NCBI GenBank assembly: GCA_001801055.1
Contig: MGWP01000058.1
Span: 1 to 34,590, forward strand
Length of the DNA: 34,590 nt
Direction: 5' to 3'
DNA from: Gallionellales bacterium GWA2_55_18
GTDB lineage: Bacteria; Pseudomonadota; Gammaproteobacteria; Burkholderiales; Gallionellaceae
Shown here: piece after piece, positions 8,419-28,932 of the stretch
Layout of the letters: every line of letters begins with the position of its first letter
Numbering within the stretch: the first letter of the stretch is position 1
The notes under the pieces: generated by a model
Databases searched by the model: none
The model's input: only the letters and a program-made list of their open reading frames with translations
Told to the model about the DNA's origin: nothing
Translations under genes and position numbers: made by a program

Positions 8419-8432
8419 ATGCCCAATTTCAC

Positions 8433-8507
8433 CGTAGGGGCGCGATTTATCGCGCCCTTTTTGCTGTATCAATAGATTTGTGGAGCGCGATGAATCGCGC
8501 CCCTACG
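8433..8507. repeat. Composite palindromic repeat (family C) before gpsA; first hairpin may act as terminator
   Basis: Outer arms CGTAGGGG (8433-8440) and CCCCTACG (8500-8507) enclose two inner palindromes. The first is GGGCGCGA-TTTA-TCGCGCCC at 8438-8457 followed by TTTTT, a good Rho-independent terminator form. The second is GCGCGATGAATCGCGC. The right end stops two bases before the gpsA ATG, so the element forms nearly all of the gpsA leader. Relatives lie at 9554-9570 and 28765-28829. Confidence 0.75.
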
Positions 8508-13093: not shown

Positions 13094-13707
13094 GGGCTAT
13101 CAGAGGACAGAGGACAGAGGACAGAAGGCAGAGGCTCTGTAGCGGCTTCGCCGCGATTATTCAACGACCCGTGCGGAGCGCGGACAAAAATCTGTTTTCT
13201 GCCCGTGGTTTCAGCCTGTTCGAGCTGGTTGTGGTCATTTGCATCGTTGCGGTGCTGATGAGTATATTTCTCAGTCGCGCACTATATTATCAGGAGCAGG
13301 CCGAAAAAACGGCTATGGAAGGAGTGGCAGGCGCTATACAAACTGCGCTGATCATACAATACGGGCGAATCTTGACACGTGGAAAAGCAACCGATGTGAC
13401 GTGGCTGGCAAAAGACAACCCGATGAACTGGTTGCAACAAAAGCTCGATAATTATGCCGGTGAAATTTACGATCCAACACCGTTGACCGTGGAGCCGGGT
13501 AGCTGGGTTTTCGATCTGAATTCGCGCGATTTGATTTATGTCCCGCGCGTTGTCAATAACTTCAAGCCCGGCAAAGACGGCAAGCAATGGATACGCTACC
13601 ACGTTGTTGTCCAATATGAGCCACCGCGTCTGCCATCGTTGCAGAATGCGCCACCTGAACTGACTGGTCTACTATTCGAGCCGACCGAGCCTTATGCGTG
13701 GTTCTGA
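13090..13707 (+). CDS. Prepilin-like protein in the mshF/mshB position, with a repeat-derived leader
   Basis: 205 residues. The type IV prepilin signature is ARG-FSLFELVVVICIVAVLM with cleavage after Gly40 and Glu at mature position 5. The mature part has a TGSWVFDLNSRDLIYV-like core (PGSWVFDLNSRDLIYVPRVV) and is likely a minor pilin. The ATG at 13090 overlaps the mshG stop (ATGA). The 40-residue leader is unusually long, and DNA 13101-13203 coding for residues about 5-38 is a copy of the composite family E repeat, ending just before the prepilin site. A GTG near residue 28 is an alternative start but lacks a ribosome site. I cannot say which msh letter it corresponds to. Confidence 0.75.
   Translation: MRAIRGQRTEDRRQRLCSGFAAIIQRPVRSADKNLFSARGFSLFELVVVICIVAVLMSIFLSRALYYQEQAEKTAMEGVAGAIQTALIIQYGRILTRGKATDVTWLAKDNPMNWLQQKLDNYAGEIYDPTPLTVEPGSWVFDLNSRDLIYVPRVVNNFKPGKDGKQWIRYHVVVQYEPPRLPSLQNAPPELTGLLFEPTEPYAWF
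13101..13203. repeat. Composite family E repeat, copy 1 (inside a prepilin leader)
   Basis: The left arm is tandem AGAGGACAG-type units (13101-13135), the centre is the palindrome GCGGCTTCGCCGC (13142-13154) plus GTGCGGAGCGCGG, and the right arm is TCTGTTTTCTGCC (13191-13203). It lies in-frame between the start codon and the prepilin cleavage site. Confidence 0.7.
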
Positions 13708-13725
13708 CAAATTTTACTGCCTGAC

Positions 13726-14349
13726 ATGGCTGAATATATGACCGATAACTTGCTCAATATGCTTTTATGGAGAGACTTGGCAATCTTCTTGCTGATATGC
13801 GCCCCGGTGGGGGTGGTTGTCAGTTTGTTGCTGATTGCCAAACCGCAATTTATGGAGCGCCTCAACCGCGTGGCGAACCGCTGGGTAACGGCGCGCCGTT
13901 TAAATCAATTTCTGGATCAGAGCATCAGTATCGAGCACTGGTTTTATCGGCATCATCGCGCGTTTGGTGCGACTGTCATGCTGGGCTCCTTATATATCTT
14001 CATCTATTTCGGCATCCTGTTCGATAAGGTATACGCGTTGCAGCACTTGAACTGGAAAATCCTGCCCAAGCTGATGGACGGATTGCTTGACGCCTTGGTG
14101 TTGAGTTCGCTGACTGGCGCAGTCACCGCGTTTATGGTTGGGTTGTTTTTATGGTTGCGCCCAAGCCTGTTGAAAGGCATAGAAGTCGAAGCTAACCAAT
14201 GGATATCTTCGCGGCGTGCGATCAAGATACTGGAAGTGCCGCGCGACCAAGTTGAGAAATTTGTCGCGCGCCATATGCAACGAGTTGGCTGGTTGCTGTT
14301 GCTGGGAAACATCTACTTGTTTTTTTTAACTTTTCATCTCTTGATGTAA
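13726..14349 (+). CDS. Membrane protein of unknown function with duplicated halves
   Basis: 207 residues with four hydrophobic helices: LAIFLLICAPVGVVVSLLLI, FGATVMLGSLYIFIYFGILF, ALVLSSLTGAVTAFMVGLFL and VGWLLLLGNIYLFFLTFHLL. The two halves look homologous: PQFMERLNRVANRWVTARR then HHRAFGATVMLGSLYIF against PSLLKGIEVEANQWISSRRA then HMQRVGWLLLLGNIYLF. The conserved N-x-W-x-(T/S)-x-R-R signature lies on the cytoplasmic or periplasmic side of helix pairs. I do not recognise the family. Its place between the prepilin-like gene and the pilin array suggests a pilus-linked role, which is inference. ATG at 13726 or 13738; no strong ribosome site for either. Confidence 0.75.
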   Translation: MAEYMTDNLLNMLLWRDLAIFLLICAPVGVVVSLLLIAKPQFMERLNRVANRWVTARRLNQFLDQSISIEHWFYRHHRAFGATVMLGSLYIFIYFGILFDKVYALQHLNWKILPKLMDGLLDALVLSSLTGAVTAFMVGLFLWLRPSLLKGIEVEANQWISSRRAIKILEVPRDQVEKFVARHMQRVGWLLLLGNIYLFFLTFHLLM

Positions 14350-14682
14350 CCCACTCGCTTGCGCGTGGTTTTCATCAATCTCAATGTTGCTACCTAATTG
14401 TTCGCGGTGAGCCTTTGACAGCGCCAGTGTGCGTCCTGCTGATTTTTCGCAAAAAAACCTAAAGTTTTCCAGAATCTTTCCGATAACCCTAACGACTGCT
14501 ATTGGATAAGCCCGGTATCTTAGGAGTTAACAAAACAGTTGCATTATCGTTATATAAGGTGTAGCGTAATGTCGCTAGTTAAAAATCTTGCTGCGGCAAG
14601 GGGTTGGCTGGTGAAGTAAAAGTGAAGCATTAATATATCGTTTTAAGTCGGGGCTGCGGCCTCAAAACTAAGGAGAACTAAA
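14350..14682 (+). other. Leader/promoter region of the first pilin gene
   Basis: 333 bases without a gene. From about 14530 onward the sequence is clearly homologous to the region before pilin 2 (15278-15430): shared blocks ACAGTTGC, TTATCGT, TTGCTGCGGCAA, TTGGCTGG, CGGGGCTGCGGCCTCAAAAC and the ribosome site AAGGAGA. TTGCAT with TAGCGT 17 bases later is only a weak promoter candidate. I could not find a sigma-54 site with correct GG-N10-GC spacing here. A promoter is likely, given the array's independent leaders and terminators. Confidence 0.5.
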
Positions 14683-15114
14683 ATGAAACAACAATCTGGT
14701 TTTACATTGATTGAGTTGATTATGGTGATCGTGATCCTAGGCATTCTGGCGGCTACCGCAATGCCGAAGTTCAGTGATTTGGTCAGCGAGGCGCGTGTTG
14801 GCAAGCTTAGTGCCATGAAGGCTTCCATGCAATCTGCGGCTCTCATGGCGCACGGTCTGCAATTGGCCCGAGGTGTCGCATCAGATGTAACTGTGACGGT
14901 TGACGGGGGTACGACGATAGCCATGCGAAATGGTTATCCGGATGATACTTCAACGGGCATTATCGCGGCGGTTGATATTTCCGATTACGTTGATAATTTT
15001 ACTAGCTCCAGCGGCGTATCGGCTGATGCGGCTCATCCTCTTTGCAATGTTTCTTATGTCAATGCCAATCCGCCAGTCTATACGATGAATTCTGATCCCG
15101 CTGATTGCGATTAA
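14683..15114 (+). CDS. mshA: MSHA-type major pilin, copy 1
   Basis: 143-residue class IVa prepilin: leader MKQQSG cleaved before FTLIELIMVIVILGILAATA, with Glu5 of the mature protein. The C-terminal half has GGTTIAMRNGYPDDTSTGII and a disulfide loop of 20 residues between Cys in HPLCNVSYVN and the Cys near the end (ADCD). It polymerises into the pilus shaft after cleavage and methylation by a prepilin peptidase not in this window. It has its own ribosome site (AAGGAGAACTAAA) and a downstream hairpin. Confidence 0.9.
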   Translation: MKQQSGFTLIELIMVIVILGILAATAMPKFSDLVSEARVGKLSAMKASMQSAALMAHGLQLARGVASDVTVTVDGGTTIAMRNGYPDDTSTGIIAAVDISDYVDNFTSSSGVSADAAHPLCNVSYVNANPPVYTMNSDPADCD

Positions 15115-15166
15115 TAATTAACTAGCCGTGCACGTGGCATTGCATATTGTGTAGCTATTTGATGAG

Positions 15167-15188
15167 AAGGGGAGGCTTGCCTCCCTTT
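15167..15188 (+). terminator. Hairpin after pilin copy 1
   Basis: AAGGGGAGGC and GCCTCCCTTT form a 10-base stem with one G-U pair and a TT loop, followed by CGCATTTTT. It lies about 50 bases after the stop codon and is probably a terminator. Confidence 0.65.
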
Positions 15189-15430
15189 CGCATTTTTGCG
15201 GGGAGCGGCAGGTCGAAATAAAAAGGCATCTTTGTTGAACAGCTGCGGTTGGTAAGCTCGATACTCGGGGCTTTAACCAATACAGTTGCTTTATCGTAAT
15301 CCAGGTGTACGGCGATGCTGCCTGTTAATAAAACATTGCTGCGGCAATGAATTGGCTGGCAAAGCAGAAGTAATATCTCGTTGTATCGCTTTAATCGGGG
15401 CTGCGGCCTCAAAACTAAAGGAGAGCTAAA
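15189..15430 (+). other. Leader region of pilin copy 2, homologous to that of copy 1
   Basis: No gene is seen. The last roughly 150 bases repeat the leader of copy 1 (see 14350-14682) with scattered differences, so the duplicated unit includes upstream control sequence and the 3' flank as well as the pilin gene. Confidence 0.5.
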
Positions 15431-15862
15431 ATGAAACAACAATCTGGTTTTACATTGATTGAGCTGATTTCGGTGATCGTGATTCTGGGCATTCTGGCGG
15501 CTACTGCGGCGCCGAGGTTCAGCGATTTGGTCAGCGAGGCGCGTGTTGGCAAGCTTAGCGCCATGAGGGCTTCCATGCAATCTGCGGCCATCATGGCGCA
15601 CGGTCTGCAGTTGGCCAGAGGTGCCGCATCGAACGTAACTGTGTCGGTTAGCGGGGGTACGACGATAGCCATGCGAAATGGATATCCGGATGATACTTCA
15701 ACGGGCATTATCGCGGCGGTTGACATTACCGATTACGTTGATAATTTTACTAGCTCCAGCGGCGTATCGGCTGATGCGGCTCATCCCCTTTGCAATGTTT
15801 CTTATGTCAATGCTAATCCGCCGGTCTATACGATGAATTCTTCGCCCGCTAATTGCGATTAA
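15431..15862 (+). CDS. MSHA-type major pilin, copy 2
   Basis: 143 residues, nearly identical to copy 1. Differences are mostly conservative: SVIVI for MVIVI, AAPRF for AMPKF, MRAS for MKAS, AASNVTVSVSGG for VASDVTVTVDGG, SSPANCD for SDPADCD. The leader MKQQSG and the cysteine pair are kept. The repeat distance from copy 1 is 748 bases. It is preceded by AAAGGAGAGC and followed by a perfect 15-base hairpin. Confidence 0.9.
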   Translation: MKQQSGFTLIELISVIVILGILAATAAPRFSDLVSEARVGKLSAMRASMQSAAIMAHGLQLARGAASNVTVSVSGGTTIAMRNGYPDDTSTGIIAAVDITDYVDNFTSSSGVSADAAHPLCNVSYVNANPPVYTMNSSPANCD

Positions 15863-15905
15863 TAATTAACCGTACACGTGGCGCCGCATATTGTGTAATT
15901 GTTTG

Positions 15906-15941
15906 ATGCGAAAGTGAGGCAAGCCTCACTTTCGCATTTTC
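15906..15941 (+). terminator. Terminator after pilin copy 2
   Basis: ATGCGAAAGTGAGGC and GCCTCACTTTCGCAT form a perfect 15-base stem around AA, followed by TTTT. It is strong and, being nearly symmetrical, could also work in the opposite direction. Confidence 0.85.
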
Positions 15942-16194
15942 GCTGGTGGTGGTAAGTCGAAGTGAAATGCCTAATTGTTAAATAGCAGGAGGATAGAGCC
16001 TTTGTTTGGAGTTTAATAATCATGGATTGCGCTGTAAGGTGACGATGCATGCGAGAGGTTCTGTTGACATTGACTGGGTAACACTTGGGTGGAGTGGGCT
16101 ATGCCCACCATGTCGTGCCACTTCGACAGGCGCAGGGCAGGATTAGCCCGACTTGCAATTTGGTTCCGGCTCGTCCGGCTTAGGAGAGTTACTG
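15942..16194 (+). other. Leader region of pilin copy 3, with a family D repeat at about 16118-16146
   Basis: No gene is supported. The stretch GCCTTTGTTTGGAGTTTAAT resembles GCCTCTGTTTGGGGTTTGAT before copy 4, so copies 3 and 4 share leader ancestry distinct from copies 1 and 2. Near the end, ACTTCGACAGGCGCAGGGCA is a short dispersed repeat of family D. AGGAGAG precedes the pilin ATG. Confidence 0.45.
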
Positions 16195-16638
16195 ATGGAA
16201 CAGCAATCTGGTTTTACATTGATCGAGCTGATTATGGTGATCGTGATTCTGGGCATCCTGGCGGCCACAGCAATGCCGAGGTTCAGTGATTTGTCCGGTG
16301 AGGCGCGTATTGCCAAGATTAATGCCATGAAGGCTGCCATGCAGTCTGCGGCTACCATGGCGCACGGAATGCAATTGGCTCAAGGTACCAACCCGAACTC
16401 GGCTGTGACGATTAACCAAGGTTTGACGACCATCAGTATGGTGAATGGTTACCCGCAAGCTGCTTTTGGCGGAATTCTCTCTGCGGTTGAAACTTCCGAT
16501 TACTACACGGGTGCGTGGAGCACCAGCGGAGTATCGGCTGATATGGCTCATATTGCTTGTGCCGTTTCTTATGTGGAAGCCGCCGTCGTCGGCACACCAA
16601 ACTATATAATGCATTCTGCACCCGCTGATTGTAGTTAA
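16195..16638 (+). CDS. MSHA-type pilin, divergent copy 3
   Basis: 147 residues from the ATG at 16195 behind TTAGGAGAG (a TTG at 16153 would give an improbable leader). The prepilin leader is MEQQSG and the mature N-terminus FTLIELIMVIVILGILAATA is the same as in the others. The C-terminal half is different: TNPNSAVTINQGLTTISMVN, AFGGILSAVETSDYYTGAWS, then CAVSYVEAAVVGTPNYIMHS and a terminal Cys. This is the outlier of the four and may display a different surface. Confidence 0.9.
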   Translation: MEQQSGFTLIELIMVIVILGILAATAMPRFSDLSGEARIAKINAMKAAMQSAATMAHGMQLAQGTNPNSAVTINQGLTTISMVNGYPQAAFGGILSAVETSDYYTGAWSTSGVSADMAHIACAVSYVEAAVVGTPNYIMHSAPADCS

Positions 16639-16850
16639 TAATGTGCGTAGCTAAGGCGGAATCATTAAACAAGGGGCGGTTGATGCCTCTGTTTGGGGTT
16701 TGATGTTCATTAGGTTGCTGTACTGTGCGCCTGTTTGCGAGAGATTTTGTTGTGCATTGGCTTGGCAAGCGAAGTAACGAGGCTGAGGCCTTGATGTTAT
16801 CCCCGCATCGGTTGGGGATTGGTTGAGCATATACCTTGGGAGAGTTGATA
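16639..16850 (+). other. Leader region between pilin copies 3 and 4
   Basis: 212 bases with no gene. It shares blocks with the leader of copy 3. The partial inverted pair AAACAAGGGGC / GCCTCTGTTT (16668-16701) is too weak to call a terminator. GGGAGAG lies before the copy 4 start. Confidence 0.4.
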
Positions 16851-17282
16851 ATGAAACAGCAAGTTGGTTTTACATTGATCGAACTGATAATGGTGATCGT
16901 GATCCTGGGCATCTTGGCGGCCACCGCCATGCCGAAGTTCAGCGATTTATCCGCCGAGGCGCGTGTCGGAAAGCTTAATGCCATGAAGGCTGCCATGCAG
17001 TCTGCGGCTACCATGGCGCACGGTATGCAATTGGCTCAAGGTGTCGCATCGAACGCAACTGTATCGGTTGAAGGGGGTACGACGATAGCCATGCGAAATG
17101 GATATCCGGATGATACTTCAACGGGTATTGTCGCGGCGGTTGACATTACCGATTACGTTGATAATTTTACTAGCTCCAGCGGCATATCTGTTGATGCGGC
17201 TCATCCGCTTTGTAATGTTTCTTATGTCAATGCCAATCCGCCGACCTATACGATGAATTCCGCAGCCGCTAATTGCGATTAA
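16851..17282 (+). CDS. MSHA-type pilin, mosaic copy 4
   Basis: 143 residues from the ATG at 16851 behind GGGAGAG. The first half matches copy 3 (SDLSAEAR, NAMKAAMQSAATMAHGMQLA), including DNA such as AATGCCATGAAGGCTGCCAT. From about codon 66 onward it matches copies 1 and 2 (GGTTIAMRNGYPDDTSTGIV, DYVDNFTSSSG, CNVSYVNANPP). The switch lies near 17031-17050. This is what a recombination or gene-conversion product would look like. It keeps the leader MKQQVG and the cysteine pair. Confidence 0.9.
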   Translation: MKQQVGFTLIELIMVIVILGILAATAMPKFSDLSAEARVGKLNAMKAAMQSAATMAHGMQLAQGVASNATVSVEGGTTIAMRNGYPDDTSTGIVAAVDITDYVDNFTSSSGISVDAAHPLCNVSYVNANPPTYTMNSAAANCD

Positions 17283-17420
17283 CAATGCGCAAGATGCGCA
17301 AGCCCTGCGTAAGGCGGATGCCATAAAGCCAGCACTATCCAAGTGGGATGTGAAATTGGTGCGGTGTAGCGTTATTTGTCGCATCCTCGCTTGATTTGTC
17401 GGCAAAGTTTATGCGGATAT

Positions 17421-17448
17421 GGGGAGGCTCGGCCTCCCCTGTTTTTTT
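17421..17448 (+). terminator. Terminator after pilin copy 4
   Basis: GGGGAGGC and GCCTCCCC pair around TCG, then TG and seven T. A classic Rho-independent form closing the pilin array. Confidence 0.88.
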
Positions 17449-17514
17449 GTTGCGGCTACCGGTTTTTGATACACTGCAACCCCTCTGAATTCAGTTTTTG
17501 ATAGGGCATAGGGC

Positions 17515-18078
17515 ATGCGGTTGAGTTCCAGCCAAGTCGAAGCAAACAAGCGGGAAACCGGACATTTTTTCGGCGCTCAGGCTAAGATATGGCTGTCCGG
17601 TTCGCGCGAGGATAAACATCAGCATGGCTTTACCTTGGTCGAACTGATTATGACAATCATCATCATCGCAATATTGGCGGTGGTGGCTGCTCCCCGATTT
17701 ACCGATAGCGACGCATTTCAATCACGCGGTTTTGCTGATCAGGTGCAAGCCACATTGCGCTATGCGCAGAAAGTGGCGATTGCAAAAAGGCGCTATGTTT
17801 GTGCGGATTTTCCTACTGCCAGTAGCGTCAAGCTGACGTATGACCCGACTGCGCCCAGCATCACACATACGACCATGGCCGCCTGTCCGGGAGGGAGCGC
17901 ACTGACCAGCCCGAGCGGGGATTCCTATCCAATTAGTAGTGACAGGGCATTGTTTTTCACTACTCCTTCCGCGTTTTATTTCGATGCATTGGGTAAACCC
18001 AGCATTGCCCAGATAATAACCATCAGCAATGTGCCAGCCAACATCGCCATTGAAGCCGAGACCGGCTATGTGCATTAA
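17515..18078 (+). CDS. mshC: MSHA minor prepilin MshC-like (GspH/FimT type)
   Basis: 187 residues. The prepilin site is HQHG-FTLVELIMTIIIIAIL, cleaved after Gly38 with Glu5 present, then AVVAAPRFTDSDAFQSRGFA and RYAQKVAIAKRRYVC, as in GspH/FimT-like minor pilins. Position after mshA fits mshC. The 38-residue leader is long; ATG 17515 is the only ATG in frame and has just GGGC upstream, so the true start is uncertain. It follows the array terminator, so a separate promoter is expected. Confidence 0.82.
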   Translation: MRLSSSQVEANKRETGHFFGAQAKIWLSGSREDKHQHGFTLVELIMTIIIIAILAVVAAPRFTDSDAFQSRGFADQVQATLRYAQKVAIAKRRYVCADFPTASSVKLTYDPTAPSITHTTMAACPGGSALTSPSGDSYPISSDRALFFTTPSAFYFDALGKPSIAQIITISNVPANIAIEAETGYVH

Positions 18079-18079
18079 C

Positions 18080-18178
18080 CAGAGGGCAGAGGACAGAGGG
18101 CAGAGGGTCGCCTTGGCTGCGCCGAGCAGTTGCATAGTGTGTTGCGTGCAGCGCACACATATTTCTCCTCTGTCCTTT
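18080..18178. repeat. Composite family E repeat, copy 2
   Basis: Left arm CAGAGGGCAGAGGACAGAGG and following units (18080-18107), a central GC-rich part with GTGTGTTGCGTGCAGCGCACAC, and right arm TTTCTCCTCTGTCCTTTGC (18162-18180). It fills the gap between mshC and the nucleotidyltransferase gene. Confidence 0.65.
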
Positions 18179-18189
18179 GCTTATACAAA

Positions 18190-18684
18190 ATGTACATGAA
18201 CATGTTCGGCTTGATCGAAATGTTGTCTGTGACGAAGATCGAATTTGTTTTGGTGGGCGGCCTTGCGGTAGCGCTGCACGGTTATCAGCGGGTCACGATG
18301 GATGTGGATGTTGTGCTGGCAATGGATGAAGGAAATTTGCAGCGATTTATTTCTATAGCCAAAGCTTCCGGCTTGCGTCCGACGATTCCCGTGGAGATTG
18401 AATCACTGACCAATCCGAAATTGATCGAGCAGTGGCATCGCGAAAAAGGCATGTTGGCCTTCAGCCTGCGTGGCCCGCAGGCGATGGCAACCGTGATGGA
18501 TATTCTGGTCAAGCCCGTGATTCCATTCGATGCCTTGCGGGACGATGCGGTGATGGTTGATGTTGGCTCGATCAGTATTCCAGTTGCATCAATCGAACAC
18601 CTGATCGCGATGAAAACGGGTACTGGGCGCAGTAAGGATTTAATTGATATCGAAGAGCTGCGAAAAATTCAGGCACTAAAATGA
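18190..18684 (+). CDS. Nucleotidyltransferase-fold protein (AbiEii/DUF6036-like)
   Basis: About 164 residues from ATG 18190 (ATGs at 18196 and 18202 also fit; earlier sequence is repeat DNA). The fold signature is FVLVGGLAVALHGYQRVTMD then VDVVLAMDE, i.e. GG, then T-x-D-x-D, followed by IPVASIEHLIAMKTGTGRSK with D-LIDIEEL at the end. This matches the minimal nucleotidyltransferase family that includes AbiEii-type toxins, whose members transfer NMPs. It is not a known pilus gene. The stop overlaps the next gene as ATGA, suggesting a two-gene cassette. Function here unknown. Confidence 0.72.
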   Translation: MYMNMFGLIEMLSVTKIEFVLVGGLAVALHGYQRVTMDVDVVLAMDEGNLQRFISIAKASGLRPTIPVEIESLTNPKLIEQWHREKGMLAFSLRGPQAMATVMDILVKPVIPFDALRDDAVMVDVGSISIPVASIEHLIAMKTGTGRSKDLIDIEELRKIQALK

Positions 18685-18947
18685 CGATTGCGGAGAAAAA
18701 TTATTTTTTGTTGCAGGAAATCGAGGCGAATCGCAGATTCCTCTTGATGGTCTATCAGCAAAACCCAAAATTGCTGGAACGTGCCGATGCCCGGATCAAA
18801 CAGTTGTTTGAGGTGCAAAATCTGATGGCACCACTTGATCGCGGTGATGCGAAAGAGAAGCCCCGGCTTCTCTCGGATGTGGAAAGCGCATGTCGGGTCA
18901 CCCCCGTCGGTGCTGAGCCTCCTGAGGTATCGAAGGGCGAACCATGA
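18681..18947 (+). CDS. Small protein of unknown function, partner of the nucleotidyltransferase gene
   Basis: 88 residues. The helical part MTIAEKNYFLLQEIEANRRF then LLMVYQQNPKLLERADARIK (about 1-50) has no motif I recognise. The tail PVGAEPPEVSKGEP is encoded by 18904-18944, which looks like a family D dispersed repeat (complement of TTCGATACCTCAGGAGGCTC), so the natural C-terminus may have been replaced. It overlaps the nucleotidyltransferase gene upstream and mshD downstream, both by ATGA. Confidence 0.6.
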   Translation: MTIAEKNYFLLQEIEANRRFLLMVYQQNPKLLERADARIKQLFEVQNLMAPLDRGDAKEKPRLLSDVESACRVTPVGAEPPEVSKGEP

Positions 18948-19555
18948 AGCCGCCGATTGAACCAAAAATGGAGAGGCTTTCCTCGGATTTATATCGTTCC
19001 CACGCTCCGCGTGGTAATGCAGCCATACCGCCCGCGCGCAGCGCGGCCAAGAATCTGTCTTCAGCCTTCTGTCTTCAGTCCTCCGAACGCGGCATCAGCT
19101 TGATCGAGCTAATTATGTACATCGTTATTGTCAGCGTAGCGATGGCTGGCATCTTGCAGGTATTGAATACCAACACCACATTCAGTGCCGATCCTTTCGT
19201 TAAAAAACAAGCCAGAGCGATTGCCGAGTCGTTACTGGAAGAGATTGAACTGCATATTTTTTCTAATTCAGGATTTACGCCCGCAATTCCCGGTAGCCCT
19301 ACGCGCGCGGAACGTACCAGTTTTGATGACGTTATGGATTACAACGGTTTTGCCACAAGTGGCGTGTATCCGGCGAATGATGATGGCACAGCAGCGGTCG
19401 TATCCGGCTTGGCAGATTACAACGTGACTGTTGCTGTAGCGGGTGTGGCATGGGACAACATAACCAACGTCAGCGCGGTGCAGATCACTGTGACAGTGAA
19501 TAATCTAAATGCAAGCCAGGTTGTAGAAGCAATTGGCTACAGGGTGGACTACTAA
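18944..19555 (+). CDS. mshD: MSHA minor prepilin MshD-like
   Basis: 203 residues. The prepilin site is SERG-ISLIELIMYIVIVSVAM, with cleavage after Gly50 and Glu5 kept; the mature part includes AGILQVLNTNTTFSADPFVK and RAIAESLLEEIELH, as in MshD. The 50-residue leader is far longer than usual: DNA from 18992 to 19085 is repeat-like (CGTTCCCACGCTCCGCGTGG, then CTGTCTTCAG units) and ends 12 bases before the cleavage site. The ATG at 18944 overlaps the upstream stop. Likely a minor pilin at the tip. Confidence 0.82.
   Translation: MKPPIEPKMERLSSDLYRSHAPRGNAAIPPARSAAKNLSSAFCLQSSERGISLIELIMYIVIVSVAMAGILQVLNTNTTFSADPFVKKQARAIAESLLEEIELHIFSNSGFTPAIPGSPTRAERTSFDDVMDYNGFATSGVYPANDDGTAAVVSGLADYNVTVAVAGVAWDNITNVSAVQITVTVNNLNASQVVEAIGYRVDY
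18992..19085. repeat. Composite repeat, copy 3 of family E right arm joined to another palindrome
   Basis: CGTTCCCACGCTCCGCGTGG (a palindrome around GCTCCGCG-type bases) is followed by GCGCGCAGCGCGG and then the right arm CTGTCTTCAGCCTTCTGTCT (19057-19076) and CAGTCCTCC. The left arm is absent. All of it is translated as part of the MshD leader. Confidence 0.6.
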
Positions 19556-20439
19556 TGCGCGTGCATGGACAATCCGGTTTTACCCTGACCGAGATAATCA
19601 TGGTGATCGTCATCACCGGCATTTTGGGCAGTATGGCGGCGGTATTTCTCAGGGCTCCCGTGCAGCAGTACCTGGATATAGGGCAGCGCGCAGACCTGAC
19701 CGATATTGCGGACCTCGCGCTACACCGCATGACAAATGATATCGGAACCGCCGTGCCAAGCAGTGTGCGTGTCGCAGGCATTGCCCCGATTTATCTTGAA
19801 TTTTTGCCAACCAAGGATGGGGGGCGCTATCGTGCAGTGAGTAGTACGCCTGATGTTTGCGCAGGGGTTGCAGGGAATGCAGGGAGCGGCGCGTTGGTAT
19901 TTGATGGTGCCGACACCTGTTTCGAAATTCTCGGCCCGGCGGTTTCATTTGTTGTTGATGATCGAATTGTGGTGGGGAGTACGCAACCTGGTGGTAATCC
20001 TTATGACACTGCGGCGACAGGCATGTTGCGTAGATACGCTGGTGCAGCGGGAGCTCAGGTGAGCGCTGTTATAGATTCCGGCTTTCCGCTTGCGGCTACG
20101 GATACGAGCCAACGTTTTGAAGTGGTTCCGGTTGATCAGCGAGCGGTAACTTACGCCTGCATAGGGACGCTCGGGACTTTGGATACGAATGGAGATGGGC
20201 AGGGCAAGCTGGTGCGCTACTGGAATTATGGATTTAATTCTGCGCAAGTTGCGCCTCCTGTTGGTGGTTCGAGCGCGGTGCTGGCGAACAAGCTTTATAC
20301 CTGCGGTATAGTCGTCGACCAGAGCCGTGGGTTGATTGCCAATACGCTGCAATTTGCCCGGGCCAGCGAAGTCATCAGTCTTTACCAGGAAATTCATGTG
20401 CATAGCTCGCCAACAATCCATGTCCATAACACGCCATGA
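19555..20439 (+). CDS. mshO: MSHA minor prepilin MshO-like
   Basis: 294 residues. A short leader MRVHGQSG precedes FTLTEIIMVIVITGILGSMA, with Glu5 present, then AVFLRAPVQQYLDIGQRADL and LTDIADLALHRMTNDIGTAV, the usual MshO/GspJ-like order. The start overlaps the mshD stop by one base (TAATG) and the end overlaps mshP by ATGA. Probably a minor pilin in the tip complex. Confidence 0.88.
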   Translation: MRVHGQSGFTLTEIIMVIVITGILGSMAAVFLRAPVQQYLDIGQRADLTDIADLALHRMTNDIGTAVPSSVRVAGIAPIYLEFLPTKDGGRYRAVSSTPDVCAGVAGNAGSGALVFDGADTCFEILGPAVSFVVDDRIVVGSTQPGGNPYDTAATGMLRRYAGAAGAQVSAVIDSGFPLAATDTSQRFEVVPVDQRAVTYACIGTLGTLDTNGDGQGKLVRYWNYGFNSAQVAPPVGGSSAVLANKLYTCGIVVDQSRGLIANTLQFARASEVISLYQEIHVHSSPTIHVHNTP

Positions 20440-20921
20440 TTGAAAAGACAGAGGGTATTACCCACTTATCGCAGATGAGCTCCACTGAACATGGCTTCAG
20501 CCTGGTTTCAGCCATTTTTTTGCTGGTAGTGATAGCCGCGCTGGGCACATTTGCCGTCACGCTTTCCACTACCCAGCAGCAAAGCGCCGCGCTGGATGCG
20601 CTGGGGTCGCGCGCCTATCAGGCGGCGCGGGCAGGGGTAGAGTGGGGTGCGTTTCAAATAACGCAGTCAGCAGTTCCCAGCGTGGGCAATGGAGTCGCTC
20701 TGGCGTGTCAGGGTGGTACAACCCTCTTGACGCCGCCAGCATTACCGGCAGCGCAGCTGTCAGTATTCAGCGTGGGTGTTACATGCAGTGCCTCTCAAGT
20801 TGCTGGCGATACTTTGAATTGGGTGTATGAACTCACCTCGACAGCTTCGGGTGTGAACGGTGCCAGCCCCGGCTCGCCGGACTATGTCGAACGAAAGATA
20901 CGTGTAACGATAGCGCAGTGA
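20436..20921 (+). CDS. mshP: MSHA minor pilin MshP-like, lacking Glu5
   Basis: 161 residues. The site EHG-FSLVSAIFLLVVIAALGTF has the Gly-Phe junction but Ser instead of Glu at mature position 5, a trait of tip-type pseudopilins such as GspK. The following LDALGSRAYQAARAGVEWGA matches PilX/MshP N-termini. ATG 20436 overlaps mshO by four bases; an in-frame ATG at 20475 gives a more normal 7-residue leader. Confidence 0.82.
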   Translation: MIEKTEGITHLSQMSSTEHGFSLVSAIFLLVVIAALGTFAVTLSTTQQQSAALDALGSRAYQAARAGVEWGAFQITQSAVPSVGNGVALACQGGTTLLTPPALPAAQLSVFSVGVTCSASQVAGDTLNWVYELTSTASGVNGASPGSPDYVERKIRVTIAQ

Positions 20922-20942
20922 GCAGGTTTGATAATACCCGCC

Positions 20943-21113
20943 ATGAGCCAAATCGAAGGGCGTAGCGTGTCCAACGAAAAGGCGGAGCTAATGGGTAATT
21001 TGGGTTCAATTTTACCTATGGGGGGGTGCACTGCTTGCGTAGAATGCGCATTGTGTGTTTCAAGATGCACAATGCCGCATAAATTTATTGACTCATGGAA
21101 TATTGTAAATTGA
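20943..21113 (+). CDS. Possible small cysteine-rich ORF (uncertain)
   Basis: A 56-codon frame from ATG 20943 ends with GGCTACVECALCVSRCTMPH, five cysteines regularly spaced by two or three residues. There is no ribosome site, and no family is recognised. It fills the gap between mshP and mshI, where mshQ might be expected in other species. The cysteine pattern recalls Fe-S or zinc ligands, but this may be chance. Confidence 0.2.
   Translation: MSQIEGRSVSNEKAELMGNLGSILPMGGCTACVECALCVSRCTMPHKFIDSWNIVN
21048..21075. promoter_or_regulatory. Inverted repeat upstream of mshI
   Basis: GCATTGTG (21048-21055) and CACAATGC (21068-21075) are perfect 8-base arms 12 bases apart. TTGACT at 21091 follows, but no good -10 lies at the correct distance. 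It could be an operator or hairpin at the head of the mshI-mshN genes. Confidence 0.4.
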
Positions 21114-21126
21114 CTAGACGCCAAGT

Positions 21127-22083
21127 ATGAATATCCAGTTTATCTCTTCGTTGTTTAAGTCAAGAAGACGCGGCTCTGGCTGGCTGGCGGTTGTTTTTGG
21201 CAAGAATGGGGTTCATCTGTCGAAAATCGAGTCGAAAGGCGCGATGCCGCATGTGGTGCGCTGTGAATATCACGATATGCGCCCAGTGTCTGCCGTATCG
21301 CTGGGAAAGTTGCGGCGAGCGGAAAAGATAGGAGCCTGCGATTTTATTACATTGCTGGCTCCGAGCGAATATCAAATGCTGATGGTTGAGACTCCCAATG
21401 TTCCCGCGAATGAGTTGAAGACGGCGGTGCGCTGGAAGATAAAAGATAGCCTGAGTTACCATGTGGAGGATGCCACGATAGATGTGTTGCCTATTCCTGC
21501 GGGTAAGTCTGGCTCGGAAAAGGCTCGGTCTGTGTATGTGATTGCCGCGTCCAATATTACTATCAAGAAGCATATTGCCTTGTTCGAACAGGCGAAAATT
21601 AACCTAGGTATGATTGATATTCCAGAAATGGCGCAACGCAACATCGCTTCGTTATTTGAGCAGGGCGATCAAGCTTTGGCAATGCTGGCATTTGATGAGA
21701 ACGGCGGCTTATTGACGTTTACAGCAGGCGGTGAGTTGTATTTATCGCGCTTCATGGAGATCAATGTTGGACAGTTGTTGGATGCCAGCGAAAGCCTGCG
21801 CAAGCAATACCGCGACCGTGTGGAGTTCGAGTTGCAGCGCTCGCTGGATTACTTCGACAGCCAATTTAGTTACTTGACTGTCGATCGCGTACTGGTTTGC
21901 GTGCCGGATAATACCGGTTTGGTGGAGTTTTTGGCGGGTAAGATTGACACTAAAGTGGAGAGGCTGGACTTGTCGCAAGTAATGGATATCAGCGCAGTAC
22001 CCATGCTTGCCGATAGTGAATTTGTCGCGCGAGCTTTGCCGTCATTGGGTGCAGCCCTGCGCCCGGAAAGGCGGGCGCGATGA
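21127..22083 (+). CDS. mshI: MSHA biogenesis protein MshI (PilM-like)
   Basis: 318 residues, actin-like ATPase superfamily in the PilM/MshI manner: GSGWLAVVFGKNGVHLSKIE, FITLLAPSEYQMLMVETPNV, ELKTAVRWKIKDSLSYHVED, then SLDYFDSQFSYLTVDRVLVC near 240. It is a cytoplasmic protein that pairs with the PilN-like product downstream. The start ATG 21127 has a poor ribosome site. It ends with an ATGA overlap. Confidence 0.88.
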   Translation: MNIQFISSLFKSRRRGSGWLAVVFGKNGVHLSKIESKGAMPHVVRCEYHDMRPVSAVSLGKLRRAEKIGACDFITLLAPSEYQMLMVETPNVPANELKTAVRWKIKDSLSYHVEDATIDVLPIPAGKSGSEKARSVYVIAASNITIKKHIALFEQAKINLGMIDIPEMAQRNIASLFEQGDQALAMLAFDENGGLLTFTAGGELYLSRFMEINVGQLLDASESLRKQYRDRVEFELQRSLDYFDSQFSYLTVDRVLVCVPDNTGLVEFLAGKIDTKVERLDLSQVMDISAVPMLADSEFVARALPSLGAALRPERRAR

Positions 22084-22712
22084 GCCAGCAAATCAACCTG
22101 CTCAATCCGCTGTTAAAGAAACAGCGCGATTTTCTTTCGCTGCGAACCATGGTGCAGGCTTTGGGTTTTATCATTGCCGGATCATTGTTTTTTTATGGCT
22201 ATGCGTTTTATCAGGCGAGCCAGCTTACTAAACAATTTGAAGAAAACAACCAGCGATATAATGCCGATCAAGCGCGCTTGGCGAGCTTCGCCCAGGAATT
22301 TTCGCCGCAGTCGGCCAATGAGTTGGTGCAGGCCGAGGTATCAAGGCTGGAAAAGGAACTGGATGAGCAAAACGAATTGATTGCTGCATTAAAGCCGGGT
22401 GCGAAAGGCAGCCTCACGGGTTTTTCGGAATATATGAGGGCTTTTTCCCGCCAGGTTGTGCAGGGTTTGTGGTTGACCGGTTTTAAGGTGGTCGGCGATG
22501 GGGTGGAAATCAGCTTGAGCGGAGGGGTATTGAACCCGGAATTGCTACCCACTTACATTCAACGCTTGGGTAAGGAGCGCATCATGCATAACAAGACCTT
22601 CTCTGCCTTGCAAATTCAGGTCGGTACCGGAAGAGGGATGGACTCCGGATCGCCGCCGCGTTATGTGGAATTCATACTGCATTCGACACCGGGTGGCGAG
22701 GTTAAGAAATGA
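22080..22712 (+). CDS. PilN-like assembly protein (second MshI-type gene)
   Basis: 210 residues. The N-terminal motif QQINLLNPLLKKQRDFLSLR is the PilN signature (INLLP-type) that docks into PilM/MshI. One transmembrane helix (FIIAGSLFFYGYAFY, about 29-45), a coiled coil (about 50-100), then a periplasmic domain. It links the cytoplasmic ring to the alignment complex. It overlaps mshI by ATGA and lies seven bases before mshJ. Confidence 0.85.
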   Translation: MSQQINLLNPLLKKQRDFLSLRTMVQALGFIIAGSLFFYGYAFYQASQLTKQFEENNQRYNADQARLASFAQEFSPQSANELVQAEVSRLEKELDEQNELIAALKPGAKGSLTGFSEYMRAFSRQVVQGLWLTGFKVVGDGVEISLSGGVLNPELLPTYIQRLGKERIMHNKTFSALQIQVGTGRGMDSGSPPRYVEFILHSTPGGEVKK

Positions 22713-22719
22713 GGCTTGA

Positions 22720-23376
22720 ATGAAGCATTATTGGGAGTTGGTGCAAAGTAAGGTAGAGGCAATGCCTTTGCGTGAGCGCTTGATAATGTTTGTTGCGATA
22801 GCTTTTGCGATAATTGCCATGACCAGCGTGATGTTACTGAATCCTCTCCTGAAAAAACAGAAGGAGTTGTCGACTAGATTGGCTCAGCAGCAAAGCCAAA
22901 TGAAAGAGCTGCAAGCGAAAGTGCAGGAAATTTCTCAAGCCAGAAAGGACGATGAGCATTCGCCGCTGCGAATAAAGGTGGCACAACTCAAGCAGCAAGT
23001 GGAAGCGCAAAGGGAAAATATACAAGGCCGACGCAATCATTTGGTTGATCCAGATAAAATAGTAAGCCTGCTGGAACAAGTTCTGAATAAAAATAGCAGG
23101 TTGCAATTAGTCGCGTTGGAAACTTTACCGGCAGATTTGGAGATGGAGCCAACCAGGAAAAATAATTCCGGGCAGAAGCAAATCTTCAAGCACAGTATAA
23201 AAATTACTTTGCGCGGAGGTTACCTGGATTTGTTGCAATACCTCACTGCAGTGGAGAAAGCACCGGTGCAGATGTATTGGGGTGATGCAAGTTTTAGTGT
23301 GGACAAGTATCCGGATGGAGTGCTAATTTTAACATTGTATACTTTGAGCTTGGATAAGGTATGGCTGAAGGTATGA
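22720..23376 (+). CDS. mshJ: MSHA biogenesis protein MshJ (PilO/GspM-like)
   Basis: 218 residues: a short cytoplasmic tail, one helix LIMFVAIAFAIIAMTSVMLL (about 21-40), a coiled coil (LLKKQKELSTRLAQQQSQMK and beyond, about 44-105) and a ferredoxin-like periplasmic domain (SIKITLRGGYLDLLQYLTAV, APVQMYWGDASFSVDKYPDG). It forms the inner-membrane alignment complex with the PilN-like protein. GAGG precedes ATG 22720. The 3' end overlaps mshK by 16 bases. Confidence 0.87.
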   Translation: MKHYWELVQSKVEAMPLRERLIMFVAIAFAIIAMTSVMLLNPLLKKQKELSTRLAQQQSQMKELQAKVQEISQARKDDEHSPLRIKVAQLKQQVEAQRENIQGRRNHLVDPDKIVSLLEQVLNKNSRLQLVALETLPADLEMEPTRKNNSGQKQIFKHSIKITLRGGYLDLLQYLTAVEKAPVQMYWGDASFSVDKYPDGVLILTLYTLSLDKVWLKV

Positions 23377-23888
23377 TGATCAGAGGACGGAAGGCAGAGG
23401 ACAGAGGACAGCGGTTTTGTCGCGGCTACGCCGCGCAGCCTTCCAAAGCGTATCGCGCAGCGACACACAATATTCTGTCTTCTGTCTTCTGTCTTCTGAT
23501 GACTGTCTTCTGTCTTCTGTCTTCTGCCCTCTGCCAAGCCGAGGATTTACCCGATCCTACCCGCCTACCGGCCATTATTATTCCCGTAACGGCGATGTGG
23601 GGGAAGCCGCCGCCAGGTTTGCAATCCATTATTATTTCCAAAGTCCGCCGTGCCGCAATTATTGACGGTGAAACTGTCGAATTGAGGGGTAAACATGGTG
23701 ATGCTACATTGATTGAGGTAAGCGAAACTGGCGTAGTGTTGCAGGGAGCACAGGGGCGTCAGGTGTTGACGCTGTTTCCCGATGTGCAAATTATGCAAAA
23801 AGAAATTCAGGCTACGCCCAAATTGTCCGAAAAGGAGGGCGGGTTAGCGCAAAAAACTGAGCTGAAAGCACGCAAGGAGCGTAAATGA
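23361..23888 (+). CDS. mshK: MSHA biogenesis protein MshK-like, with a repeat-encoded signal segment
   Basis: 175 residues from ATG 23361 (ATGs at 23373 and 23376 also possible). The conserved part starts about residue 60: DLPDPTRLPAIIIPVTAMWG, SIIISKVRRAAIIDGETVEL, GVVLQGAQGRQVLTLFPDVQ. This is the PilP/MshK type, a periplasmic link to the secretin. Residues about 1-36 come from the left arm and palindrome of a family E repeat, and residues 37-58 (ILSSVFCLLMTVFCLLSSAL) from its right-arm tandem units. That hydrophobic stretch is the only candidate export signal. The end overlaps mshL by ATGA. Confidence 0.8.
   Translation: MAEGMMIRGRKAEDRGQRFCRGYAAQPSKAYRAATHNILSSVFCLLMTVFCLLSSALCQAEDLPDPTRLPAIIIPVTAMWGKPPPGLQSIIISKVRRAAIIDGETVELRGKHGDATLIEVSETGVVLQGAQGRQVLTLFPDVQIMQKEIQATPKLSEKEGGLAQKTELKARKERK
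23380..23534. repeat. Composite family E repeat, copy 4 (most complete)
   Basis: Left arm of AGAGGACGG / AAGGCAGAGG / ACAGAGGACAG units (23381-23410), palindrome CGCGGCTACGCCGCG (23421-23435), and a long right arm of CTGTCTTCTG units (23476-23534) interrupted once by ATGA. Left and right arms are partial inverted complements. The entire copy is translated in MshK. Confidence 0.75.
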
Positions 23889-25615
23889 GAGTTTCGATAG
23901 GGTTGTGTGCCGGTCTGCTGCTGTTGGCGGGCTGTGCTGCACCGACTGCTCGAAATCAGACAGCGGATGCTATTCGGCGCGAAATGAGTCATGCCGTGCA
24001 GGATAGCGTCAGGCCAAGCAGGATGGATGAGGTAAATAACGCCTTGCTGCCGCCGCTGACGATGAGTCTGCCCAAGATAGGCAAGCCGCAGGAAACAAAA
24101 TTCGATTTAACCGTCAACGACACGCCGGTCGGGCAAGTGTTTATGGCGATTGTGTCTGGCACGCGCTACAGTATGCTGTTGCATCCGGATGTTAGCGGCA
24201 GCATCTCCCTGAATTTAAAGGATGTGACGGTATTTGAAGCGCTCGAAGCGATTCGCGAGGTGTATGGCTATGAGTACAAGCTTGATGGTTCGCGGATATA
24301 TATCCAGCCACTAGCCTTGCAGACGCGACTATTTCAGGTGAATTATCTGACTGCGACGCGAGCAGGTTCGTCATCACTATCGGTGCAATCGACGTCAGGC
24401 GGCACAAGTAGCACAAGCAACCCAAGCAACCCAAGCAACCCAAACAACCCAAACAACCCAAACAACCCAAACAACCCAAACAACCCAAACAATACCGGTA
24501 GTACGAGCAGCTCGGGTGGGACTGGCAGCAGCAATGTCACCATGACAACCAATACCAGAGCCAATTTTTGGTTGGAATTGGAAGCTTCGTTAAAAGCCAT
24601 AGTTGGCAATGAGCCGGGGCGTAGCGTGGTACTCAATTTAATGTCCGGGGTGATCGTGATTCGCGCCATGCCTAACGAACTAAAGAGCGTGGCCGCTTAT
24701 CTGAAGGCTTCGCAGATTTCGATTGAACGCCAAGTCATACTGGAAGCCAAAATTGTTGAGGTGCAGTTGAATGATAATTTTCAGTCTGGCGTAAATTGGG
24801 GCGTATTCAAGCGTAATCCCAATAGCCGCGTCGTCTTGGGGCAAGTGTCACCAGGTGGTTCGCTTACTACAAATGGCGGAGCAATGACGAACGGAACGGT
24901 AAACCTTAGTGCTGCTGGAGCTATGTCAGTTGCACAAGGATTAAGTGGAGCTACGGGAGCATTATTTGGCCTAGCGTTTCAGACCGGAAATTTTGCCGCC
25001 ATGTTGGATTTTCTGGAAACTCAAGGTAATGTGCATGTGTTATCCAGCCCACGCATCGCAACCGTAAATAACCAAAAGGCTATTTTGAAAGTTGGCACAG
25101 ATGAATATTTTATTACTGGCTTTACAAGCACACCGGCTACGACAACAAACAATGTAACGACAGCTGGCACGACTACCGCAACTTATGCCCCAATGTTTTC
25201 AGGAATTGCATTAGACGTGACGCCGAGCATCAACGAGAACAACGAAATCATTTTGCATGTGCATCCGTCGGTAAGCCAGATATCCGAAAAAAACATAGCG
25301 GTAGCCAGTGGTGGAACAGTTCCGATGGCATTAACTTCAATTTCTGAAACAGATAGCATCGTGCGTGCTCACGATGGTCAGATCGTAGTGATCGGCGGAT
25401 TGATGCGCCAAGCAACATTTGACGATCAATCCGGCCTGCCGGGTTTGCCCAAGATGGTGTTCGGGCAAACCAAAAAGCGTACCGAAAAGCGCGAGTTAAT
25501 TATTCTGCTAAAACCCACTGTGGTGGATAGCGACAGGGATTGGTCGGAAGACATCATGCAGAGTCGAGATCGCTTTAACGGACTGCTGAAATCGCCCGCA
25601 AACACCCAACCATGA
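23885..25615 (+). CDS. mshL: MSHA pilus outer-membrane secretin MshL
   Basis: 576 residues. Lipoprotein signal MRVSIGLCAGLLLLAGC with lipidated Cys17; N-domain of STN type (FDLTVNDTPVGQVFMAIVSG, SISLNLKDVTVFEALEAIRE, about 70-140); a low-complexity linker with eight Asn-Pro-x triplets at about 179-203; a second N-domain; and the secretin barrel region VHVLSSPRIATVNNQKAILK through IVVIGGLMRQATFDDQSGLP and RELIILLKPTVV. It forms the multimeric pore through which the pilus leaves the cell. The linker is encoded by a 9-base tandem repeat. Confidence 0.95.
   Translation: MRVSIGLCAGLLLLAGCAAPTARNQTADAIRREMSHAVQDSVRPSRMDEVNNALLPPLTMSLPKIGKPQETKFDLTVNDTPVGQVFMAIVSGTRYSMLLHPDVSGSISLNLKDVTVFEALEAIREVYGYEYKLDGSRIYIQPLALQTRLFQVNYLTATRAGSSSLSVQSTSGGTSSTSNPSNPSNPNNPNNPNNPNNPNNPNNTGSTSSSGGTGSSNVTMTTNTRANFWLELEASLKAIVGNEPGRSVVLNLMSGVIVIRAMPNELKSVAAYLKASQISIERQVILEAKIVEVQLNDNFQSGVNWGVFKRNPNSRVVLGQVSPGGSLTTNGGAMTNGTVNLSAAGAMSVAQGLSGATGALFGLAFQTGNFAAMLDFLETQGNVHVLSSPRIATVNNQKAILKVGTDEYFITGFTSTPATTTNNVTTAGTTTATYAPMFSGIALDVTPSINENNEIILHVHPSVSQISEKNIAVASGGTVPMALTSISETDSIVRAHDGQIVVIGGLMRQATFDDQSGLPGLPKMVFGQTKKRTEKRELIILLKPTVVDSDRDWSEDIMQSRDRFNGLLKSPANTQP
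24419..24490 (+). repeat. In-frame 9-base tandem repeat in mshL
   Basis: Eight copies of a 9-base unit: two AACCCAAGC-type, then six AACCCAAAC-type, encoding Asn-Pro-Ser or Asn-Pro-Asn. Changes in copy number would keep the frame and only lengthen or shorten the linker. Confidence 0.9.
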
Positions 25616-25616
25616 T

Positions 25617-25803
25617 TCAGAGGGCAGAAGACATAACCAATGACTTGGCTGGCGTTGTTTGCCAGCCTAGTCAGATGGCTGGTAGTTTTATCAGAAAACA
25701 GAAGGCAGGCGGTTGTGTGCCGCTACGCGGCACGCTCCGGAGAATTGCGCGGCACAGCCGCGACAAAGCCTCCGTTTTCTGTCTTCTGCCTTCTGTCTTC
25801 TGA
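25617..25803. repeat. Composite family E repeat, copy 5, between mshL and mshM
   Basis: CAGAGGGCAGAAGACA (25618-25633), a second left arm AAAACAGAAGGCAGG (25695-25709), palindrome GTGCCGCTACGCGGCAC (25716-25732), and right arm TTTTCTGTCTTCTGCCTTCT plus GTCTTCTG (25774-25801). The right arm touches the mshM ATG. Confidence 0.7.
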
Positions 25804-28713: not shown

Positions 28714-28932
28714 ATCATTGCCCTTTCAAGGATGATGCGCCGTTTTCGTTTAACCCGAATTTACCGTAAGGGCGCGATTTATCGCGCCCTTTGGTTGCGG
28801 GGTCAGGACGCGATAAATCGCGCCCCTACAGTATTGCACTATTGATTGGAAAATGGAGTTATTCCATTTCTAAATTAAAAGTGCGATGTCGTGATTATCG
28901 TCGTTTCAAAATAGAATTGGAATCAAACCACT
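28714..28932. repeat. comF-bioB intergenic region with a family C palindromic repeat (28765-28829)
   Basis: CGTAAGGGCGCGATTTATCG leads into GCGCCCTTTG, and after a short gap GACGCGATAAATCGCGCCCC-TAC closes it. This is the same composite as at 8433-8507. Downstream, AT-rich sequence before the bioB ATG may hold its promoter, but I cannot pick convincing hexamers. No BirA operator is recognised. Confidence 0.65.

Follow-up and report, generated by a model that had tools for sequence, protein, structure and literature searches.

Small dispersed repeats occur within the heptameric arrays of Nostoc, and REPINs, which derive from repetitive extragenic palindromic (REP) sequences, are dispersed, non-autonomous elements consisting of two inverted GC hairpins. 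In Yersinia, the 168-bp RU-2/YAPL repeat, a miniature inverted-repeat transposable element (MITE), is described as giving predicted signal peptides, chiefly in YPO1552 (Delihas, 2007; PMC2759123), and predicted signals are also mentioned for YPO2495 and YE2643 (PMC2759123; reviewed in PMC2229807). The available portion of the same review describes Rickettsia palindromic elements (RPEs), palindromic repeats that lie in frame in conserved protein genes (Ogata, 2000, cited in PMC2229807). In Xanthomonas and Nostoc, GGGNATC heptamers were found in the vicinity of stops and starts of genes (Rehm, 2015; PMC4692102), and the reverse TAACTGA repeat of Beggiatoaceae gives the repeating heptapeptide LSVISYQ (MacGregor, 2015; PMC4679880). 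Here we describe a repeat with inverted 7-mer arms that was first noticed in the msh pilus cluster of Gallionellales bacterium GWA2_55_18, in a stretch of 34,590 nucleotides (contig MGWP01000058.1 of assembly GCA_001801055.1; the window in the following). We consider it likely that this is a MITE-like repeat whose arms supply signal peptides in exported proteins, the 7-mer arms probably serving as signal-peptide coding sequence that is neutral to the reading frame.

A full copy begins with a left arm (CAGARGR)n, continues with a core of ~62 nucleotides (nt) in which two GC hairpins are found, and closes with a right arm reading as the reverse complement of its left counterpart; the arms are tandem arrays of 7-mers with a variable number of units. 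Terminal inverted repeats, short length and the absence of a transposase gene inside the element are features of MITEs. Like the RU repeats it is palindromic and carries open reading frames (ORFs), but the RU repeats, in the accessible text, occupy few loci and have no 7-mer arms, whereas the arms described here are open in every frame and concern nine protein families in several species. With the RPEs it shares in-frame copies, here in the MshK-like protein (K), DUF3108, RuvX, M3 peptidase, CheA and others; this likeness is one of description, and the available part of the review mentions neither 7-mer arms nor a signal-peptide role for RPEs (PMC2229807). Dispersed 7-mer arrays near stops and starts are common to this element and the heptameric repeats, but for the latter G-quadruplex or regulator sites were proposed, and inverted arms around hairpins or a signal role do not appear in the accessible excerpts (PMC4692102; PMC4679880). 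Compared with REPINs, the element lacks the GTAG tag, possesses additional 7-mer arms and has no REP-associated tyrosine transposase (RAYT) beside it in 20 loci. A search of the open-licence PubMed Central literature gave no report in which arms of this kind replace signal peptides recurrently. Such replacement by frame-neutral arms looks new, with Yersinia RU, Rickettsia RPE and the heptamer repeats as partial precedents.

The consensus 7-mers contain no stop in any frame, and because seven is no multiple of three, an array encodes the same repeated peptide in every frame. The pyrimidine strand CTGTCTT gives the hydrophobic heptapeptide LSSVFCL in all three frames, while the purine arm gives a charged peptide, QRTEDRG or QKTEDRR. 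When the 1612 stop-free cyclic 7-mers were ranked by hydropathy, CTGTCTT was found at position 55 and CTGTCCT at position 149, and the complement of CTGTCTT, encoding KTEDRRQ, at position 1599. Therefore, stop-free and frame-neutral units can make n- and h-regions of a signal peptide available whichever way the copy points, and in every register that leaves the core open.

Two proteins that could be compared across many species illustrate this. At the junction between J and K, the right arm leads directly into the conserved mature start AEELPDPTRPP (in G000, ...NILSSVFCLLMTVFCLLSSALC is followed by QAEDLPDPT). In 22 species, the h-region of K was encoded by the arm in seven and was degenerate in four, while the remaining 11 had another leader (e.g. 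MMRNFFHTTLTLTMVLFSVAANAEEL in G048). The first 20 codons past the arm of the window copy contain no in-frame ATG, GTG or TTG. On the tree, K required six changes without significant clustering of the states (reached in 67/500 shuffles for the free and 119/500 for the arm state), and gain and loss are not separable at this gene because the leaders are not clearly homologous.

The gene encoding the DUF3108 protein was matched in 59/61 genomes of the genus, and a sample consisting of the 30 best-scoring loci plus G013 was analyzed, so that distant species are absent from it. In 10 of these 31 species the native leader is missing and the arm forms the h-region, directly followed by a c-region that was retained (e.g. 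SAFAA or PALAA). Another 20/31 species had different leaders, for which MKWYLQALAWLMLCAAI is the prevailing type; the ambiguous G008, which was flagged by a loose pattern, was set aside. The hydropathy of arm and other leader versions overlaps. A single origin of the arm version was rejected, as the tree needs five changes (approximately unbiased test, p = 3e-70, G008 being counted as free). The non-clade pattern fits repeated replacement or exchange between species.

The same use of the arm was obtained for further proteins. At least 54 composites and at least 29 solo arms were taken among the matches listed per genome, and within this set the arm forms the hydrophobic segment or h-region in 18 cases (13 in composites, five beside solo arms) from nine families, namely K, DUF3108, DUF4390, FlgI, FlgH, FliO, FliP, EnvC-like M23 and ApbE. 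FlgI, FlgH, FliP, FliO and EnvC are known to carry signal peptides. Signal arms were picked by reading, with protein family and not Phe content as criterion; one or two members per family were subjected to a Pfam scan and the others were placed by likeness, and at least one member matched in eight of the nine families, K being the one without a match. All three registers are in use (8, 6 and 4 cases), and the best 12-residue hydropathy ranged from 2.05 to 2.95. Upstream, 9/18 signal ORFs read QMT at an ATG, which at DUF3108 mostly takes the form of a CAGATGAC stretch. Pilin-type leaders are also derived from the element, in N1 and O1 of the window (both with N_methyl matches under the Pfam cut-off) and in PilX, and via a second core type in PilW.

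A neutral insertion wherever a peptide is tolerated (ends, loops, linkers), as known from RPEs, would involve no export role, and the hydrophobicity would be a by-product of the codons. This is in line with the in-frame solo purine arrays found as charged stretches within M3 peptidase (L036), an AcrB-like protein (L039) and CheA (L040) of the own genome, and with the N-terminal extensions that the element forms on RuvX and Gph; proteins in general tolerate it, as they do RPEs in Rickettsia. However, by reading, the array is the main or only hydrophobic segment ahead of the mature protein in the nine exported families, and the unit composition of the signal arms is biased. Among the scored units, the Phe-encoding CAGAAGA had a share of 0.75 in signal arms (n = 18), compared with 0.38 in non-signal arms pointing the same way (n = 36) and 0.32 in 79 others (signal vs non-signal p = 5.4e-5; by family, 9 vs 20, p = 0.003; copies from related species are not independent). 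Of 13 two-armed elements, 11 had a signal arm richer in Phe units than its counterpart, the remaining two being ties. This bias does not extend to arms in front of other genes and suggests that selection acts on the protein, and insertion of a merely tolerated peptide is an unlikely explanation of the signal arms.

For the reading of the arms as signal peptides, the following course may be proposed. A non-autonomous, MITE-like palindromic repeat of ~100-150 nt would have settled in intergenic gaps while being compatible with translation, which most such repeats are not. Placed at a gene's 5' end, it could then give a charged followed by a hydrophobic stretch, corresponding to the n- and h-regions of a Sec signal peptide, and the native signal peptide of exported proteins may be replaced while the native cleavage region is kept, DUF3108 being the clearest case. 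The element would thereby be the origin of three leaders in the window, namely the apparent signal peptide of MshK and those of two ORFs resembling pseudopilins. Dispersal, architecture, filled and empty junctions, reading frames, the missing native leader and the unit bias were directly observed; export, the translation starts, and mobility and its mode are inferred. More tentatively, with somewhat less than an even chance, the element may be a portable, frame-neutral signal cassette that spreads partly by supplying export and overwrites flagellar, pilus and envelope leaders repeatedly and independently, with selection on the protein tuning the units. If true, this would be a concrete and repeated route from a dispersed non-coding repeat to a working targeting signal of core proteins (flagellar rings and export gate, pili, cell envelope), for which element-free relatives allow comparison, and it would suggest why frame-keeping 7-nt units thrive where genes begin. 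In such genomes, start codons will probably be misassigned by gene callers.

Several observations weigh against this proposal. Arms aimed at genes without a signal peptide (36) outnumber the signal-encoding ones (18), and plain tolerance explains part of the pattern because the repeats also occur in the cytosolic RuvX, Gph, M3 peptidase and CheA. A high Phe-unit share was also found in two non-signal families (UppS 0.83, MotA 0.75), and the non-independence of related copies applies to the whole comparison. In FlgI, DUF4390 and the EnvC of G013 the hydrophobic segment lies partly outside the array, and the cleavage sites of K are, by eye, poor in some species (LNA, LEA). The scattered occurrence may reflect parallel gain or, alternatively, exchange among species. 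Regarding mobility, the best 2-bp target duplication match was 16/54 vs 10.5 in shuffles (reached in 2/200), which is not significant as the best of 100 combinations of offset and length. No autonomous partner was seen between 22 wider or odd arm pairs of the fetched loci, a check that covered these loci and not whole genomes, and in which gene content was read for three pairs (the window pair, L271 with phage genes, and L233). Core pairs changed on both sides were not in excess (3 vs 2.2 in shuffles).

The element often spans the whole gap from the upstream stop to the downstream start. A purine arm end was located at most 10 nt past the stop of an ORF of at least 100 amino acids in 9/29 arms of the own genome (0/29 at the other end), 34/177 arms of named genomes (9/173) and 5/47 arms of viral contigs (1/46), a contrast that is partly built in because the other end faces the core in composites; at random places such a stop within 60 nt was found in 68/520, 518/4520 and 150/1160 cases, respectively. 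Arms preceding genes without a cleavable signal peptide (MshM, FliR, PilD, MotA, MotB, GpsA, MreC and others) commonly stop just short of the start codon. Both filled and empty sites were obtained at the L-M junction, where 21 species were compared, in line with the MITE-like nature that the sequence-only reading had suggested: five were filled (the left arm being worn in G059), 13 had a short junction of 11-30 nt, two a decayed-looking stretch of 91 nt and one a different insertion. In G041 the L-M core is in reverse orientation, which implies either an inversion of the core or two separate insertions at this site. The outer flanks were AT in 43/108 cases. A special outer unit with T at position 5 was considered and dropped (16/108 outer vs 29/358 inner units, p = 0.06).

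This stop-to-start placement, together with corresponding sites in several species, would also be expected of a structural RNA acting within operons (mRNA stability, attenuation or translational coupling) that is kept for its hairpin while the coding overlap is incidental. The folds are stable, with z-scores of -8.2 to -10.0 for three full copies (two from the window, one from L035). For an alignment, 33 cores (two from the window) were used out of 43 with fitting length, the ten omitted ones being mostly more divergent; they align over 68 columns with a mean column identity of 73%, the two hairpins being paired in 96% and the closing stem in 76% of cells, and the covariation score lies slightly above that of shuffles (0.100 vs 0.087; 10/500 shuffles attained it). 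On the other hand, an Rfam scan of the window revealed only a tRNA, compensatory pairs were not above shuffles, the L-M junction is short in most species, and missing native leaders and unit bias would stay unexplained. A structural RNA as the reason for the maintenance of the element thus appears possible but rather doubtful.

To place the window in its genome, the assembly (1.69 Mb, 71.5% complete) was scanned for arms with at most one mismatch. By our grouping, the 62 matches obtained make up 20 arm sites, which are distributed over 11 contigs and of which 15 lie outside the window; two of the 20 may be both ends of one stretched copy (L034, 980-1225). The reversed pattern gave 15 matches, a weak control because a reversed array of this 7-mer nearly matches too. 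The sequence-only reading had found copies only in the msh cluster and considered local spread, a target preference or a role in the cluster. Within the window the restriction to the cluster holds, but the genome scan shows dispersal and does not support it, although the window remains dense (5/20 sites on 2% of the sequence). Judged by the neighbouring genes, 13/20 sites fall within sets for motility, chemotaxis or pili (msh 5, the fliO-fliR stretch 4, pilD, motA, motB and cheA; FliO and FliP of the own genome were assigned by likeness to L330), and the excess in such genes is an impression.

Within the genus, arms were found in 21/61 genomes and strict composites in 11 of those 21. The patchy distribution is reflected in a draw of 300 genomes from the order, five of them members of the genus, in which only the window's own genome had a composite. 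Among the matches listed, of which 80 loci were inspected, composites were further present in Gallionella and Nitrosomonadales metagenome-assembled genomes (MAGs; L149, L170, L199), arms around or beside a single hairpin (by reading) in Accumulibacter, Azonexus and Zoogloeaceae, and direct 7-mer arrays without inverted partner in many phyla. The latter, together with very different array lengths and runs of at least 20 units in G039, could be taken for a minisatellite that grew locally via slippage without mobility, which the sequence-only reading had offered as an alternative. The arms are indeed 7-mer arrays of variable number, but inverted arms with an alignable core at unrelated genes, and a composite pattern that gave no match when read backwards in 21/21 arm-bearing genomes, speak for the MITE-like composite and render purely local growth very unlikely.

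Since the core consists of two inverted GC hairpins and Y1_Tnp matches occur in 51/61 genus genomes, a REPIN mobilized by a RAYT (Y1 transposase) was considered as well. However, in 20 fetched Y1_Tnp loci (more than 100 further matches lie outside this sample) 7-mer arms were never found within ~2 kb, and by reading 8/20 carry their own GTAG-tagged hairpins. This largely refutes a REPIN/RAYT origin, which we regard as extremely unlikely.

In the window, 22 matches to the arm pattern CAGARGRCAGARGRCAG (at most two mismatches) were obtained, all between 13101 and 25802, compared with 0.02 expected from shuffles. Inspection of arms and cores located all five copies where the sequence-only reading had seen them (Table 1). 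The centre is common to them as shown by the core alignment, but the build varies: both arms are present in copies 4 and 5, the first two copies have a weak right arm, the third is a right half, and the stretch from 25617 additionally holds a second, different core. Arms measure 17-94 nt and cores 36-94 nt across the at least 54 composites. The proposed fold-back was recovered, strongly for the full copies and weakly for copies 1 and 2. That reading had overlooked that gene 5' ends include the element in their coding sequence, as the apparent signal peptide of K and as leaders of two pseudopilin-like ORFs.

Table 1. Copies of the repeat and associated features in the window.
Feature	Position	Strand	Description
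Copy 1	13101..13203	+	7-mer left arm 13101-13131, hairpin core, degenerate/weak right arm; fold z -2.55
Copy 2	18080..18178	+	Hairpin core, short/weak right arm; fold z -3.8
AbiEii-like nucleotidyltransferase ORF and small ORF	18130-18684 and 18681-18947	+	Between copies 2 and 3
Copy 3	18992..19085	+	Right half: hairpin and right arm 19055-19085
MshK-like ORF	23361..23888	+	N-terminus until QAEDLPDPT encoded by copy 4; hydrophobic segment VFCLLMTVFCLL
Copy 4	23381..23533	+	Left arm 23381-23411, core 23412-23474, right arm 23475-23498, extra right array to 23533; fold z -9.0
Second core type	25618..25691	-	Minus strand AAAACTACCAGCCATCTGACTAGGCTGGCAAACAACGCCAGCC...GGTTATGTCTTCTG; direct-orientation 7-mer units on both sides
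Copy 5	25692..25802	-	Full composite, core orientation opposite to copy 4; fold z -8.2

Copy 1 lies inside the pseudopilin-like ORF 13090-13707 and makes up the leader preceding RGFSLFEL, and copy 3 lies inside ORF 18944-19555, where it provides the leader KNLSSAFCLQSSERGISLIEL of a pseudopilin-like protein; the N_methyl matches of both were under the Pfam cut-off of 21.2 bits (17.2 and, barely, 21.1 bits). Copy 2 starts immediately past the stop of the pilin-like gene 17515-18078. The junction of copies 2 and 3, which in the window includes the AbiEii-like gene, spans merely 13-235 nt in 12 of the 14 species having it, and in G059 a stretch resembling the small ORF adjoins an arm at the same junction. 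Copy 4 occupies the J-K junction. The MshK-like ORF, to which the Pfam scan assigned no family, has in-frame ATGs at 23361, 23373, 23376 and 23499. Copy 5 stops 2 nt short of the ATG (25805) of the MshM-like ATPase. The names MshK, MshL and MshM are our presumption from gene order, Pfam having tested only the secretin and ATPase domains.

The core of the second type spans 25634-25691, and the same sequence adjoins other copies. In relatives this repeat type has the form ATGAAACTACTAGCCATTCGACTAGGCTGGCAAACAACGCCAGCC, often adjoining arms, and it gives the PilW gene of G016 its start codon and leader. By eye, CTGTCYT arrays form an apparent signal peptide in an Omnitrophota MAG (L171, MLFVALLVCLLSSVFCPLTHAEG) and an Opitutia MAG (L184, MKRFTLLFSVLCLLSSGLLAQ). 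Another 7-mer family, GGATNCN, was detected in 27/61 genus genomes with no control matches; it is common in G028, G029 and G040, where CAGARGR arms were not found, and G010, G013, G044 and G050 carry both. Inverted GGATNCN-type arrays were seen by eye at one G-N1 junction in both G040 and G018.

Other repeats are present in the window. Four pilin-like units lie in tandem at 14670-17300, 656-764 nt apart and with 68-91% identity to the first over 300 nt. A 9-nt repeat, CCAAACAAC, is found at 24405-24500 within the secretin gene, and a separate dispersed palindrome, GGGCGCGATTTATCGCGCCC, unrelated to the arm repeat, forms inverted pairs at 8431-8507 and 28762-28833.

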